A DNA stretch of 64,000 nt from positions 1 through 64,000 of the IMG/VR virus record IMGVR_UViG_3300042904_000419; one strand, 5' to 3'. Under the pieces are notes generated by a model, which searched no databases, was not told where the DNA came from, and saw only the letters and a program-made list of their open reading frames with translations. Position numbers and translations under genes: made by a program. The DNA comes from a virus. Of this stretch, positions 31,385 through 59,056 are shown in pieces; position 1 is the stretch's first letter; each line of letters begins with the position of its first letter.

Positions 31385-32944
31385 TCAGCGGTCCGTCCAG
31401 TCTGCGTCTTCATCCGGCAGCTCCATCTGCGGCTGTTCCGGCTCCGGCGCGTGGCCTTCGAAGTGTCCCGCCGCTGGCTGGTAGATCCGACAACGGCCCA
31501 GGCTCCCGTGCAACTTGACCATGCCCACCGCGCCCTGCCGGTTCTTGGCGATGATGAGCTCTACCAGCCCCTCGCCGTCGTCGCGCTGCCCGGCCTTCTG
31601 CCGCGCGTAGTACTGCGGCCGGTGGATGAACATCACGGCGTCCGCCACCTGCTCGATCATCCCGCTTCCGCGAAGGTCGGAGAGCATCGGCCGCAGGTCC
31701 GCCCCGCCCCGGCGCTCGTTGCTGCGGGTGAGCTGAGACAGTACCACCAGGGCAATCCCGAGCTTCCGCGCCGTCGCCTGCAGGGACTTCATAATCAGGG
31801 TGAGGGCGGCGTTCTCGTTCTCCGCCTTCGGATCCCAACTGATGATCTGCAGGTAGTCGATCACCAGCATCTCGATCCGCTGCTCCCGCACCAAACGACG
31901 GGCGAGCGCGCGGATCTGGCCCGCGGTGACGTCCGACTCGTCCACGATGTGGAGGGGGTAACCCACTACCCGCTCCACCGCCTGCGCCAGCAGAGATTGC
32001 TGGGTCTCCGTGAGCTGGTCCGGCAATTCCGGGTTGGCGTGGTTCAGGACGGTGGTGAGCGGCACCCCGTAGCGCACGTCATGGAGCGCGGTATCCGCGC
32101 ATTGCATCCGGACGCCCACGTCCGCCCGCGGCATCTCCAAGCTGAGCAGCGCCGCTGGTTTCTTGGTGCGACCAGCGGTCAGGAGGAGCTCTACCGCCAG
32201 GGCGCTCTTGCCCATGCTCGGCCGCCCGGCCACGAGGTAGACCTTGCCGGGCAGGAACCCGCCTTGCATCCGGCGGTCGACCCCGGGGAACCCGGTGCTG
32301 ACGGCGCGCTCCGGAGCGAGCGCCGTGGCGCCGTACGTCTCCAGCGTGGCCAGCATCAGGTTCCGCGCGTTGTAGACCGGCACCGCCTGCCGCTGCGTCC
32401 CAATGGCGAGCACCACCTCCTCCGCGCAGTTCAGCAGGTCGTCGGCCTCCAGCTCCTCGTTCCGCGCGAGTTCGTCGATCGTCTGTCCCGCGGTAATCAG
32501 CTTGCGGCTGATCGACTTGCGCTTGACGATCCGCGCGTAGTGCTCCACGTGCGCCGCGGTGGGCACGCTGTCCGTCAGCGTCAGCAAATAGGCGAGCCCG
32601 CCGGCCCCTTCGAGCTGCTCCCGCTTCGCCAACTCCTCGGAGACCGAGAGGGTATCCACGGGCTGGTCCCGGTCCGCCAGGTAGGTGATGACCTCGTGGA
32701 GTTTCCGGTGGGCGTCCAGGTAGAAGTCTTCCCGCTCCAGCAACTCCACCACGGCATCCGTCGCCGTGCGGCTGATCAGAGCGGCGCCCAGGGCGGCCTG
32801 CTCCGCGTCGATGGACTGCGGTGGGAGCCGGTCAGGGAGCGCCGGGAGCCCCACGGGTGGAGCCTCGTACGGCACCGGCAGGTTTGCGGCCTCCTCGCTG
32901 CCGTAGGAGCGGCAGCTACGGGGGTCGGGGCGGCGCGTAGTCAC
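31385..32944 (-). CDS. dnaB: Replicative DNA helicase, DnaB family
   Basis: A 519-residue protein from GTG 32944 (GTGA overlap with the initiator gene). N-terminal domain: LPPQSIDAEQAALGAALIS...FYLDAHRKLHEVITYLADRDQPVDTLSVSEEL. The RecA-like motor has Walker A GRPSMGKSALAVELLLTAG, Walker B MLVIDYLQIIS, motif LVVLSQLTRSNERRGG and ADAVMFIHRPQYY with the arginine finger region. This is the hexameric helicase that unwinds phage DNA ahead of the replisome, encoded directly downstream of a DnaD-like initiator. Confidence 0.95.
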   Translation of the reverse strand: MTTRRPDPRSCRSYGSEEAANLPVPYEAPPVGLPALPDRLPPQSIDAEQAALGAALISRTATDAVVELLEREDFYLDAHRKLHEVITYLADRDQPVDTLSVSEELAKREQLEGAGGLAYLLTLTDSVPTAAHVEHYARIVKRKSISRKLITAGQTIDELARNEELEADDLLNCAEEVVLAIGTQRQAVPVYNARNLMLATLETYGATALAPERAVSTGFPGVDRRMQGGFLPGKVYLVAGRPSMGKSALAVELLLTAGRTKKPAALLSLEMPRADVGVRMQCADTALHDVRYGVPLTTVLNHANPELPDQLTETQQSLLAQAVERVVGYPLHIVDESDVTAGQIRALARRLVREQRIEMLVIDYLQIISWDPKAENENAALTLIMKSLQATARKLGIALVVLSQLTRSNERRGGADLRPMLSDLRGSGMIEQVADAVMFIHRPQYYARQKAGQRDDGEGLVELIIAKNRQGAVGMVKLHGSLGRCRIYQPAAGHFEGHAPEPEQPQMELPDEDADWTDR

Positions 32945-34110
32945 GGGCGACCTCCGGTGCTCGCAGCTCGCAGGGTTTCCCAGCGCCGGCGCAGCGCCTG
33001 GCGCATTACGGCCGGCTGTGCTTCCCACTCCGGGCTGCCGGGGCCCGCCGCCAGTAGCCGGTCGGTCTCACTCACCGCGGCCGGGATGCCCCGACTGACG
33101 ATCTTCTGCCGGACGGGCGGCGGCGGGGCTCCGGCCGGGGCGGCGAAGTCGTCGGCCTCGTCCGGCTCGGGGGCAGGGTGGGTTACGGAGGCCGGGGGGG
33201 GCGGATTCAGTCGGTCCCGGAGCGTGTTATAGAACCAGGGCATCGTCCGCGGTCCCTGGGAGCCCTTGGCCGCCCAGCGCCGCTTGGTTTCCTCCGCCGT
33301 AGCCAGCAACTCCGCCACGGTGACCCCGCGGCCCGTCTCGAGGTGGTGCTCCAGTTCGTCTTTCCAGCGCTCGAACCCCTCGCCGTCCAGGAGCCCGCCG
33401 TACCAGGCACTGACGGCCTGCTTGCCGCCCTCGTGGTACAGCTCGGCCGCTCGTTGGCGGTGCGGTGGCATCTTGAGCTGCACCCCTGGCGGAGGTTCCG
33501 GGGCGCCAGGGGTCGGGGCAGCGCCAGCGGGGGAGGAGTTGCCTGCCGGGGCGGCTGGAAGAGACGACGACGACCCCTCGCCGGTCGGTTCTGGGGCGGC
33601 CGACTCTCGTACCCCGTACTCGTCATCGTCATGGCTCTGGCATGGCTCTGGCTCTGGCAATGGGCGCGCGTGAGGCGGACAACGGCTGCCACTGTCCGCC
33701 AACGGCAGCCGTTGTCCGCCGTTGTCCGCCGTTGTCCGCCGTTGTCCGCCGTTGTCGGACACTTTCGGGCGAATGGGGCCGGTGACGAAGGCGCGCGCGG
33801 TGCGGAGGAGTTGCTTGCGGAGCGTCTCGTCGGCATGCTCGTGCCAATCGTGGACCACCAGGCGGTACTCCTCACTCTCGTCCAGCCAACCACATTCCGT
33901 GAGGGCGTCCACCAGGTCGTCCGGGTCACCTTCCCAGTCGATCCCCATGGCGATCCGGTGGTTGGGCAGCCGGCCCAGATCCCCGCAAGGAGTCTCCCGG
34001 GCGCAGAGGTGCCAGAGGCACTCCAGGAGGCCCACGACCACATAGTCGCGAACGTCCAGCCGGCGCGCGAGTGCGCGGAATTTGCTGTTACCTTGGGTGC
34101 CCCGCTTCAT
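32941..34110 (-). CDS. DnaD-like replication initiator
   Basis: A 389-residue protein from ATG 34110. The N-terminal domain (MKRGTQGNSKFRALARRLDVRDYVVVGLLECLWHLCARETPCGDLGRLPNHRIAMGIDWEGDPDDLVDALTECGWLDESE) is a winged helix like phage and plasmid initiators of the DnaD/ReplN type. The middle (about 115-220) is Pro/Glu/Ser-rich and contains DNGGQRRTTA repeats encoded by tandem 10-bp units. The C-terminal part is helical. It should bind the internal iterons and load DnaB, encoded next. The arrangement resembles lambda O with its origin. Confidence 0.7.
   Translation of the reverse strand: MKRGTQGNSKFRALARRLDVRDYVVVGLLECLWHLCARETPCGDLGRLPNHRIAMGIDWEGDPDDLVDALTECGWLDESEEYRLVVHDWHEHADETLRKQLLRTARAFVTGPIRPKVSDNGGQRRTTADNGGQRLPLADSGSRCPPHARPLPEPEPCQSHDDDEYGVRESAAPEPTGEGSSSSLPAAPAGNSSPAGAAPTPGAPEPPPGVQLKMPPHRQRAAELYHEGGKQAVSAWYGGLLDGEGFERWKDELEHHLETGRGVTVAELLATAEETKRRWAAKGSQGPRTMPWFYNTLRDRLNPPPPASVTHPAPEPDEADDFAAPAGAPPPPVRQKIVSRGIPAAVSETDRLLAAGPGSPEWEAQPAVMRQALRRRWETLRAASTGGRP
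33674..33756. repeat. Iterons inside the initiator gene, probable replication origin
   Basis: Four perfect tandem copies of GTTGTCCGCC occupy 33711-33750 with a fifth partial (GTTGTC) at 33751. An exact inverted copy (GGCGGACAAC) lies at 33674-33683, and a degenerate copy at 33691-33700. A 7-base hairpin (GGCTGCC / GGCAGCC) lies at 33684-33709. A 10-bp period matches one helical turn, as for protein-bound iterons. Confidence 0.65.
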
Positions 34111-35386: not shown

Positions 35387-35685
35387 TCCGGCACCTCCAC
35401 CCCTGCGGCACGCAGCGCCCGCGCCAGCGAGAGCATCCGCTGTTGGGCGCGCGCCGCACCGCTATCGACGCCGACCAGGGTGTCGCCGGTCCGGAAGTCC
35501 GCTTCCCGGCAAACCAGGAGCAGTTCCAGCGCCGCTTCCGCTACCGGACGGAAATACAAGGCCTCGGCGGCGCTCACTGGCGCGTGCCCGAAGCCGTCCT
35601 CGGGACGCACCCAGGCATGTGTCCCGAGGACCGTCTCCTGGTCGTTGCCCAGGAAGACAGCAGTATCCGGCGGTGCTTCGCTCAC
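35383..35685 (-). CDS. Hypothetical protein downstream of Bet
   Basis: A 100-residue protein from GTG 35685, in a GGAGGTTGCT-GTGA junction. It reads VSEAPPDTAVFLGNDQETVLGTHAWVRPEDGFGHAPVSAAEALYFRPVAEAALELLLVCREADFRTGDTLVGVDSGAARAQQRM, mixed strands and helices, with no metal or catalytic set. Its position directly after Bet would suit an accessory recombination protein. Confidence 0.5.
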   Translation of the reverse strand: MSEAPPDTAVFLGNDQETVLGTHAWVRPEDGFGHAPVSAAEALYFRPVAEAALELLLVCREADFRTGDTLVGVDSGAARAQQRMLSLARALRAAGVEVPE

Positions 35686-36614
35686 AGCAACCTCCCGGTT
35701 TCCACCGGCTCGTCCGCGCCAGCATCGCCCGCAAACTGGTCCTCGTCCTCGACCACTTCGGAGGCGAGTGGCCAGTTCGTATCCCCCGGCAGGCAGCCGC
35801 GCTGCTGCAGGAGTTGCACGAAGCGCTCCTTGCCGGCGGGGGTGACCTGGTTCAGCGCCCGAAAGTTCTCGCCGAGAGCCGCCCCGATGTGCTGGAGGAG
35901 CGCGGCGCGGTTCTTGGGGTCGCCGCCGGCCGCGATGTACGTCTCGTTGAAGACGCGCACCTGGTCCTTCTCCGGCAGGTCGGCGTACGCGGGGTCGGGC
36001 GCCGGTGCCTGGAGTTGGGCCGGCTGCTCCTCGATAATCCGGGAAGTGCCGGGGATCGCCTGCCCCTCGTCCATCAGGTCGAGGTCGCCGATACCGGCCT
36101 GCGGGATCTTCCGCCAGCAGTGCGCTTCGGCGCGGACCGCGAGCATGTGGAGTGGGCGCTGCTTCCAGTTGGGGTTGAACTCCATGAAGAATTCCTTCAG
36201 GTAGATCACCGCCTCGAACGCCCGGGAGCTCCCAGCGATCCACATCTGGCACCGGCAGGCGACCGGCAGTTCCTTCCGGACCCAGATCGAGCGCCATACC
36301 TCGTCTTCGCCGCAGTACGCAATCTCCAGCCCGTTGACCCGCGCGCGCTGCCCGCCCAGGTGCCGGAAGCCGTCAATCCCGGTCGCCATGACCAGCTTGC
36401 CGGTCTTGTCCGTCCAGCCGTAGATGTGGCGCTGCAGGGGGTCGAGCCCCTTGCGCTCGCAGTAGGCCATGAACACGAGAAACTGATCGTCCTTCGTGAT
36501 GCCGGAGGCCACCGTCTGCCGGATGGTCTGCCGGAGCTGCTGGCTAAACACCAGCCCCGTCTGCTGCTGCGCCAGGCCGTGGTTTCCGTGCCGGGCGATT
36601 GCCGTCTCTGACAT
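35682..36614 (-). CDS. bet: Single-strand annealing recombinase, Bet/RecT family
   Basis: A 310-residue protein from ATG 36614. The core LVFSQQLRQTIRQTVASGITKDDQFLVFMAYCERKGLDPLQRHIYGWTDKTGKLVMATGIDGFRHLGGQRARV matches the Bet (Redbeta-like) family, including the GLDPLxxxIY motif and the start of the DNA-binding beta sheet. Later WIAGSSRAFEAVIYLKEFF and the Pro/Glu-rich tail agree. It binds single-stranded DNA and pairs homologous strands. No exonuclease partner is evident nearby. Two stem-loops lie in its leader (36647-36705). Confidence 0.85.
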   Translation of the reverse strand: MSETAIARHGNHGLAQQQTGLVFSQQLRQTIRQTVASGITKDDQFLVFMAYCERKGLDPLQRHIYGWTDKTGKLVMATGIDGFRHLGGQRARVNGLEIAYCGEDEVWRSIWVRKELPVACRCQMWIAGSSRAFEAVIYLKEFFMEFNPNWKQRPLHMLAVRAEAHCWRKIPQAGIGDLDLMDEGQAIPGTSRIIEEQPAQLQAPAPDPAYADLPEKDQVRVFNETYIAAGGDPKNRAALLQHIGAALGENFRALNQVTPAGKERFVQLLQQRGCLPGDTNWPLASEVVEDEDQFAGDAGADEPVETGRLL

Positions 36615-36712: not shown

Positions 36713-36976
36713 CTAATCCCAGAGCGCGGCGCGGCGCTTGGCCTCCGCTGCCTGCTCCTCCGGCGTCTGCCGGGCTCGCTGTTCCGCTGCCAGCGCCTCG
36801 CGGCAAGGGCGGCACATCTCCGCCGCCTCCCGCGTCAGCGCCGCCGCGAGCAGTTCCTCGGTCATCTGCGCGTCCAGGTCGATCTGCTCCGGGTGCCGCT
36901 GTCCGTCTGGGCACTCCCGGAACACGGTCAGGCGGCGGTACAGCATCCGCACCCGTGGTCGGAACCGATCGTCCAT
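36713..36976 (-). CDS. Small zinc-binding hypothetical protein
   Basis: An 87-residue protein from ATG 36976 (GGGGGAG upstream). It has a basic N-terminus (MDDRFRPRVRMLYRRLTVFRECPDGQRHPEQIDL), a long helix (EELLAAALTREAAEMCRPCREALAAEQRARQ) and two cysteines in CRPC. It lies between a tRNA-like gene and bet. No family recognised. Confidence 0.55.
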   Translation of the reverse strand: MDDRFRPRVRMLYRRLTVFRECPDGQRHPEQIDLDAQMTEELLAAALTREAAEMCRPCREALAAEQRARQTPEEQAAEAKRRAALWD

Positions 36977-37021
36977 CCGTCTCCCCCTCGTCCCGCCCGC
37001 AGGCTCCACCCCGCGAGCGAA

Positions 37022-37142
37022 GGAGAGAGGCCTGAGTCGAACAGGCTGCCCCGCGCCGCCGAAGCGGAAGCGTTACTCGGGGTGTCTAGCGGCCGTTGAA
37101 GTGATCGCTGGCTTGTGGGTCACCGTCCCCACCGCTCTCTCC
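37022..37142 (-). tRNA. tRNA-Sec-like gene, anticodon UCA
   Basis: A 121-base element read leftward with unusual but complete arms. Acceptor: GGAGAGAG pairs perfectly with CTCTCTCC (8 bp). D-arm: GTGGG / CCCAC with an 8-base loop containing GG. Anticodon arm: about six pairs with one A-C mismatch, loop ACTTCAAC with TCA. Variable arm: a long stem CCCCG / CGGGG around CCGC-TTCG-GCGG. T-arm: GCCTG-TTCGACT-CAGGC (5 bp). The 8+5 layout and UCA anticodon are hallmarks of bacterial selenocysteine tRNA. Departures: the discriminator is T rather than G, the length is 121 rather than about 95, no CCA is encoded, and the anticodon loop has 8 bases. It could be an opal-reading tRNA or a degenerate copy. 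Confidence 0.65.
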
Positions 37143-37183
37143 GTGGTCCCGGATCTACGCGCACCGGGCGATAGCGGGAGCGG

Positions 37184-37264
37184 TTACTCCTCTTCAGGCT
37201 CCTCCGGCGGCCCGGCCGCCCACATCAACAGCAGCACCCACAGCGCCCAGAACAGCGTCCGCAT
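37184..37264 (-). CDS. 26-residue membrane peptide
   Basis: ATG 37264 with GGAGGT just upstream. Sequence MRTLFWALWVLLLMWAAGPPEEPEEE is one hydrophobic helix with an acidic tail. Nearly all third codon positions are G or C, whereas the overlapping longer frame loses that bias here, so this peptide is the real coding frame. It may be a small membrane regulator. Too short for family assignment. Confidence 0.55.
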   Translation of the reverse strand: MRTLFWALWVLLLMWAAGPPEEPEEE

Positions 37265-37703
37265 GCCTACCTCCGTAGAGCCACAGGCCGAGCGAGAGCA
37301 CCCCGCCGGACAGCAGCGTGAGCAGCGCCAGGAGGCTCTGCTCCGTGAACCACAGCCCGCCCACCATGAGCGAGAGCGCCACCGCGCAGACGCCGCCCAG
37401 CCACAGCCGGAAGCGCGCGTACCGCTCCGCCTGCGCGACCTCCTGCTGCCGGACTTCCAGCGCCGCCCAGGAGGCCAGCAGTCGGGCCTGGTCGCGCCGG
37501 AGCGCTTCCTCGCGGGTATCCAGGGCTCCGGCCCGCACGTCCAGTTCCTGCAGGTCCGCCCGGCAGGCAGCGGCGCTCATCACGTCCGCCGCCCACTGGT
37601 CGAGGCGAGCGGTGCGGGTGTTCAGCTCCGCCTCGCGCCGGTCGAGGTCCTGAGCCCGGACGCGTAGGGCGCGCTCGGTTAGGGTGGGGAGGGGCTCGTT
37701 CAC
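37194..37703 (-). CDS. Coiled-coil membrane protein
   Basis: A 169-residue reading frame. Residues 8-100 are a charged coiled coil (RVRAQDLDRREAELNTRTARLDQWAADV...). Residues 100-142 are two membrane helices (RLWLGGVCAVALSLMVGGLWF and LLALLTLLSGGVLSLGLWLY). After residue 142 the coding bias vanishes. A TAG sits one base out of frame, next to the GGAGG that serves the 26-residue gene. If GG were GGG the protein would end at about residue 144 (...WLYGG). Function unknown. Confidence 0.6.
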   Translation of the reverse strand: MNEPLPTLTERALRVRAQDLDRREAELNTRTARLDQWAADVMSAAACRADLQELDVRAGALDTREEALRRDQARLLASWAALEVRQQEVAQAERYARFRLWLGGVCAVALSLMVGGLWFTEQSLLALLTLLSGGVLSLGLWLYGGRHADAVLGAVGAAVDVGGRAAGGA

Positions 37704-46922: not shown

Positions 46923-46995
46923 GACGCGGTGGAGCAGTTGGTAGCTCGTCGGCCTCATAAGCCGAAGGTCGGCGGTTCGAGTCCGTCCTGCGTCC
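46923..46995 (+). tRNA. tRNA-Met (anticodon CAU)
   Basis: A full cloverleaf: acceptor GACGCGG / CTGCGTC (one G-T pair), D-arm GAGC...AGCTC with TTGGT, anticodon stem TCGGC / GCCGA with loop CTCATAA, variable AGGTC, and T-arm GGCGG-TTCGAGT-CCGTC. G1-C72 pairing makes it an elongator Met, or an Ile tRNA if the anticodon C is modified. It has no CCA end encoded. Confidence 0.85.
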
Positions 46996-47038
46996 CTCCG
47001 GTGCGGAACCGGTGTCACGAGCGTGAGCCATTGACTGG

Positions 47039-50380: not shown

Positions 50381-50388
50381 CCCCAACC

Positions 50389-50453
50389 GCGAAGTAGCTC
50401 AACGGTAGAGCGCCGGGCTTCCCGGTGACCGCGGTTCAACTCCGCGCTTCGCA
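50389..50453 (+). pseudogene. Shortened tRNA-Gly-like element
   Basis: 65 bases. T-arm CGCGG-TTCAACT-CCGCG and D-arm GCTC...GAGC are intact. The acceptor has only 6 base pairs (GCGAAG / CTTCGC). The anticodon arm is a compact hairpin CCGGG-CTT-CCCGG instead of a 5-pair stem with a 7-base loop. A full tRNA-Gly(UCC) would carry about 5 more bases (AACCC) there. It is probably a remnant or a non-decoding tRNA-like RNA. Confidence 0.6.
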
Positions 50454-50500
50454 ATGCAGATTTCCTACCAGAACGCGGCGGATTAGTAGCTGCTCGCCCT

Positions 50501-58975: not shown

Positions 58976-59056
58976 GACTGCGTAGCCCAATTGGAAGAGG
59001 CACGACGACCGAATAGGTACGCCGCACCGGCGCAGGTTCGAATCCTGCCGCAGTCC
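58976..59056 (+). tRNA. tRNA-like element with unusual anticodon arm
   Basis: 81 bases. Acceptor GACTGCG / CGCAGTC (7 bp), T8-A9, D-arm GCC...GGC, and T-arm GCAGG-TTCGAAT-CCTGC are all normal. The expected anticodon arm is replaced by an extended hairpin, CGACG-ACC-GAATA-GGT-A-CGCCG, with an A-C mismatch and a 5-base loop. Thirty bases separate the D- and T-arms rather than 23-24. No standard anticodon can be read. It might be a non-decoding tRNA-like RNA or an unusual tRNA. Confidence 0.55.

Follow-up and report, generated by a model that had tools for sequence, protein, structure and literature searches.

A tRNA-Sec-like element between two small genes in the early region of a temperate phage

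The 64 000-nucleotide stretch of DNA that was analysed (the window) makes up nearly all of a 64 325-base virus record and carries an element of 121 nt on the minus strand, the architecture of which combines 8+5 acceptor/T pairs, a D arm, an anticodon loop with UCA and a long variable arm. The element is very probably a real tRNA-derived RNA, the main reservation being that the number of windows screened before this one was picked is not counted in the chance rate given below. The best overall explanation, which is held with moderate confidence, is a gene for a tRNA-like RNA, either derived from selenocysteine tRNA (tRNA-Sec) or convergent with it, that has departed from the selenocysteine pathway.

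Position and fold of the element

The element is located in a gap of 217 bases between genes 37194–37703 and 36713–36976 and on the same strand as both. The surroundings are the early region of a temperate phage: the minus-strand genes from ∼39.1 to 19.1 kb include those for a RecT-like protein, a DnaB helicase, a methyltransferase and DUF5131 proteins, and the adjoining plus strand holds a repressor-like gene and an integrase. The element lies entirely between the genes of a compact operon, and only some 5% of placements within this early region would be fully intergenic. No family could be assigned to gene 37194–37703, for which a match to RNase_Y_N was weak and under the cut-off, and a family search with gene 36713–36976 returned none. 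The features are listed below in the direction of the minus strand.

37194–37703, minus strand: upstream early-operon gene, 169 aa, ending 51 nt before the element (gene calling)
37022–37142, minus strand: whole tRNA-like element, 121 nt (cloverleaf in MFE fold and centroid)
37135–37142, minus strand: 5' strand of the acceptor stem, GGAGAGAG, in 8 Watson–Crick pairs with 37022–37029
37115–37132, minus strand: D arm GTGGG-GACGGTGA-CCCAC, 5 pairs and 8-nt loop (fold)
37110–37114, minus strand: linker AAGCC, 5 nt, between D stem and anticodon stem (fold and tRNA-Sec alignment)
37088–37109, minus strand: anticodon arm AGCGATC-ACTTCAAC-GGCCGCT (fold)
37097–37099, minus strand: anticodon UCA, with U before and A after it (sequence and fold)
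37083–37087, minus strand: linker AGACA, 5 nt, between anticodon stem and variable arm (fold)
37049–37082, minus strand: long variable arm CCCCG...CGGGG with inner hairpin CCGC-TTCG-GCGG (fold)
37030–37046, minus strand: T arm GCCTG-TTCGACT-CAGGC (fold; GTTCGAYTC is common to bacterial tRNA-Sec)
37022–37029, minus strand: 3' strand of the acceptor stem, CTCTCTCC, pairing with 37135–37142
37021, minus strand: discriminator U73 (sequence; tRNA-Sec needs G73)
36993–37020, minus strand: 11-pair hairpin starting one base 3' of the element (fold of 36960–37200)
36713–36976, minus strand: downstream early-operon gene, 87 aa, beginning 45 nt after the element (gene calling)
35682–36614, minus strand: RecT-like single-strand annealing protein (PHROG 2780, E 7.8e-26)

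When the 121-nt strand was folded alone, the cloverleaf was both the MFE structure and the centroid, and it was kept in a 241-nt context (36960–37200, ∼60 bases on each side). All 18 of the acceptor, T and D pairs are Watson–Crick. The folding energy is ordinary for such GC-rich DNA (z of −1.36 alone and 0.06 in context), so the case for the element rests on the arrangement of its arms and on its loops and not on stability. The MFE fold reproduces the arms described in an earlier note on this DNA (8-pair acceptor, 5-pair T arm, 5-pair D arm and long variable arm), and sequence and fold together bear out UCA in the anticodon loop. The reservations entered there were likewise correct: the discriminator is T, the anticodon loop has 8 nt, its stem has one mismatch and the total length is 121 nt. 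The anticodon stem (AGCG.A.UC / GG.C.CGCU) consists of six pairs and one A.C mismatch and closes the 8-nt loop ACTTCAAC, in which U33, UCA and A37 are retained.

Two further features had escaped the earlier description, namely the 5-nt linkers that flank the anticodon stem and the absence of an encoded CCA in the sequence after position 37021. The other tRNAs of the same phage are likewise without an encoded CCA and its absence here is therefore no defect. No terminator was found at the 11-pair hairpin (36993–37020), which has no T run behind it.

Chance expectation and comparison with bacterial tRNA-Sec

The chance expectation was estimated with a blind descriptor that accepts any 8/5 cloverleaf and requires neither an anticodon nor Sec-like loops. 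The descriptor had exactly one match in the window, the element itself, and none in 60 shuffles of the window; most of its matches in 2.4 Mb of other loci were true tRNA-Sec genes. Random sequence of the same composition gave 15 matches in 589 Mb (9200 windows), or ∼0.002 per window, and a second random set gave 28 structural decoys with 8/8 acceptors in 11 234 windows. The D, anticodon and T loops were next scored for similarity to those of 20 bacterial tRNA-Sec. The element reached 28.3 bits, compared with a mean of −15.0 (s.d. 9.8) and a maximum of 16.3 bits for 1944 structural decoys; 19 of the 20 reference tRNA-Sec scored 36–45 bits and one scored 21. Together, the structure rate of the second random set and the decoy count give a joint chance rate of less than about 1e-6 per window. 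A cloverleaf formed by chance in GC-rich DNA could draw on the leniency of the descriptor, on the many windows that were perhaps screened at ∼0.002 matches each and on the ordinary folding energy, but it is very improbable given this joint rate, a loop score above those of all the decoys, acceptor, T and D stems made up of Watson–Crick pairs throughout and the intergenic position.

Bacterial tRNA-Sec (selC; Rfam RF01852) has in common with the element the 8/5 acceptor/T stems, the long variable arm, UCA within a CUUCAA loop, CGGT in the D loop and the T loop GTTCGACTC. As in tRNA-Sec, the inner GA/GA of the D loop could pair as tandem sheared G.A and leave CGGT as a tetraloop, and a CGGT/TGGT loop is present in the bacterial tRNA-Sec alignment. 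The base behind CUUCAA is C in the element, whereas it is A in this alignment. Bacterial tRNA-Sec has a D stem of 6 bp with a 4-nt loop, a spacer of 0–1 nt between D stem and anticodon stem, a length of 90–101 nt and G73; the corresponding features of the element are 5 Watson–Crick pairs with the 8-nt loop GACGGTGA, a spacer of 5 nt, 121 nt and U73 (37021). An essential G73, a length of 90–101 nt and a 6-bp D stem are also the values given for tRNA-Sec in the Secmarker study (PMC5330540).

An Rfam search with the element gave no match at E ≤ 10, RF01852 included; there was no gathering-level match to the canonical tRNA family RF00005, and ARAGORN does not call the element. A covariance model was purpose-built from 20 bacterial tRNA-Sec (from E. 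coli, Desulfobacterota and Chloroflexota), and the element scored 6.8 bits against it in a wrong alignment, with the background in the same window reaching 18 bits. The covariance search that the earlier note had proposed, and on which it would have given up a tRNA-Sec assignment for lack of a score, thus yielded no tRNA-Sec score; the linkers and the long variable arm, which the model is unable to span, account for this. What stands of the original assignment is an architecture like that of tRNA-Sec and its location in an early operon of a phage; the identity as tRNA-Sec does not hold in view of the model result, U73, the linkers and the length. The element resembles tRNA-Sec but falls outside its family. 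A functional phage tRNA-Sec, on which serine would be loaded and turned into Sec before delivery by host SelB, could account for the 8/5 architecture, for UCA in the CUUCAA loop, for CGGT in the D loop and for the T loop. It is nevertheless extremely improbable: it is strongly disfavoured by U73 at the position where G73 is essential (PMC5330540), and the 5-nt linkers, the 121 nt, the empty Rfam search at E ≤ 10 and a score of 6.8 bits under a background of up to 18 bits speak against it as well.

The linkers and the long variable arm hide such elements from the standard tRNA finders, and the present one exemplifies this class. Basilisk-like Bacillus phages provide a precedent for a tRNA-Sec claimed in a phage genome (PMC6145125); those are tRNAscan-SE calls beside ordinary tRNAs, whereas the present element is missed by ARAGORN and Rfam.

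Searches for relatives

At the DNA level the element had no phage match, and plasmids gave only marginal short matches. Patterns of the three loops retrieved from IMG/VR only host selC copies and chance matches. In the intact tRNA-Sec found by the IMG/VR scans the acceptor is followed by G and then CCA, as would be the case in host genes caught at prophage edges. The present element differs from them in its altered discriminator and in its place within a phage operon. In two further records (L291 and L301) a host selC gene is represented by its 3' part, which passes into unrelated DNA close to the anticodon loop; integration of a prophage in selC would leave such a junction. That the element might itself be an attP fragment of selC was rejected: an attP would hold the 3' half only, and in the element the D arm and the two strands of the acceptor are all intact.

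Records related through other phage genes were searched as well. The RecT gene had no relatives in IMG/VR. The closest record by terminase is at 79% (L065/L084), and its alignment does not reach the early region; the element was not present in the TerL-related IMG/VR records, the alignments of which stop outside the early region. A TerL search of genomes with the single protein returned nothing and a profile search returned 79 distant loci, and the element was absent from the 72 of these loci that were searched, viral ones included. It was also absent from the 18 loci searched among 15 records sharing gene 32941–34110 and three sharing the integrase. A model based on the element gave weak matches in 1486 genomes of four phyla, no more than expected by chance; being built from one sequence it is insensitive, and it missed the E. 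coli selC in L020 and L054. The best genome match (L306, an Acidobacteriota genome; 123 nt, 34.5 bits, E of 0.009 per genome, beside a tRNA) was rejected, as a match of this kind is expected by chance among 1486 genomes and its T loop is abnormal.

The absence of relatives from the IMG/VR loop-pattern searches would suit a decaying relic of a tRNA-Sec-like gene taken from a host, as would the anticodon-stem mismatch, the 8-nt loop, U73 and the extra linkers. Such a relic is unlikely, however, since the 13 acceptor/T pairs and the 5 D pairs are intact and Watson–Crick, and drift would not keep such pairing for long.

Some structured RNAs were observed in the related records. The closest terminase relative contains a match to the int-alpA RNA family (L084:7360–7423, plus strand; 36.4 bits, cut-off 35.8). 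A phage record that shares gene 32941–34110 contains a 108-nt cloverleaf with 7/5 acceptor/T arms and no recognisable anticodon loop (L343:17279–17386, minus strand, identical to L315:198–305, plus strand). A 76-nt tRNA body (L358:8976–9051, minus strand, identical to L322:5598–5673, plus strand) scores 46.4 bits against Rfam tRNA; its anticodon arm, GACGAGTGCTCGTC, is a palindromic hairpin that lacks a usable loop.

UGA in the phage and possible roles

TGA is the stop codon of 49 of the 79 called phage genes, in many of which it overlaps the next start, and the extensions past these stops look non-coding. The phage genes show no apparent site at which an in-frame UGA would be recoded. With most genes ending in TGA, a strong suppressor of UGA would be detrimental to the phage and is unlikely, and the general opal suppressor put forward earlier is disfavoured by this same count. 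The options that remain are that UGA is read with cysteine, weakly or in dependence on SelB, that the RNA has a role other than decoding, or that the gene is decaying.

The element can be compared with tRNAs that have a Sec-like architecture and other jobs, which are known from bacteria and metagenomes (PMC7609411). Among them are tRNASec-like tRNAs with U73 and UCA (PMC7609411). The selC* tRNA-Cys, in which the anticodon is GCA or UCA (PMC7609411), have a Sec-like body and U73 in common with the element and, in some members, the UCA anticodon. They have an 8/4 branch with a bulged A51a (PMC7609411), whereas the element is 8/5 with a T stem free of bulges, and two of their subgroups adjoin selB* or cysS*; a Pfam scan of 30 of the 79 called phage genes showed neither SelB nor CysRS. 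The determinants of bacterial CysRS are U73, G2–C71, C3–G70 and GCA, and in minihelices Cys identity can come from U73 alone (PMC9976931). U73, G2–C71, C35 and A36 are present in the element; C3–G70 (pair 3–70 is A–U) and G34 are missing. The bases present would point to a cysteine identity, as in selC* tRNA-Cys. The other suggestion in the earlier note, an evolved allo-tRNA, does not fit in the published sense. Allo-tRNAs also have a non-standard acceptor branch, a long variable arm and an odd anticodon, but their branch is of 12 pairs (8/4 or 9/3) and their identity is serine (G73), compared with 13 pairs (8/5) and U73 in the element.

The favoured explanation can be put as a series of steps. 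The element would be a gene for a structured tRNA-like RNA, descended from or converged on tRNA-Sec, that would no longer take part in the selenocysteine pathway. The early (minus-strand) transcript of the phage would include it between the two small genes, and RNase P and RNase Z would probably excise it, with CCA supplied by the host. Charging with serine is not expected, given U73. If the RNA is charged at all, cysteine would be the likeliest amino acid (U73, G2–C71, C35 and A36), and weak reading of UGA could then follow; that the element does read UGA with Cys is possible but rather doubtful. The missing C3–G70 and G34, the lack of a relative in the records searched, the absence of an apparent UGA recoding site and the ordinary folding energy count against the favoured explanation. 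Were the element expressed, it would be a small example of a tRNA mimic or non-standard tRNA employed by a virus.

A serious rival, although we consider it less than probable, is a non-decoding tRNA mimic, the body of which would either serve in processing, as a signal at which the early transcript is split, or bait host enzymes that bind or cut tRNA. Its standing is owed to two more tRNA bodies of the phage (50388–50454 and 58976–59056), which have no normal anticodon loop and seem unable to decode, and to similar cloverleaves in two distant phage records. The intergenic position within the operon and the strong hairpin directly 3' of the element are also consistent with a mimic, weak or absent decoding is easier to accept in a phage in which TGA ends most genes, and resistance to the anticodon nucleases of the host has been proposed for phage tRNAs (PMC10264068). 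Against a mimic, U33, UCA and A37 are still in place in the anticodon loop, and the binding or processing role is itself putative.

Three other tRNA bodies were observed in the window, all on the plus strand. That at 50388–50454, in a gap between genes, scores 58.1 bits against Rfam tRNA and is missed by ARAGORN; its anticodon arm is CCGGG-CTT-CCCGG, without a normal loop. That at 58976–59056, in a gap between late genes, scores 35.2 bits against Rfam tRNA and has a perfect acceptor and T arm with an aberrant anticodon region, CGACGACC-GAATA-GGTACGCCG. The third (46923–46996) is an ordinary tRNA-Met (CAT) with CCA not encoded; a similar tRNA is located at L084:5715–5787 in the closest terminase relative. 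By analogy with tRNA-dependent lysogeny (PMC10865867), this tRNA-Met may complement a host tRNA broken by integration.
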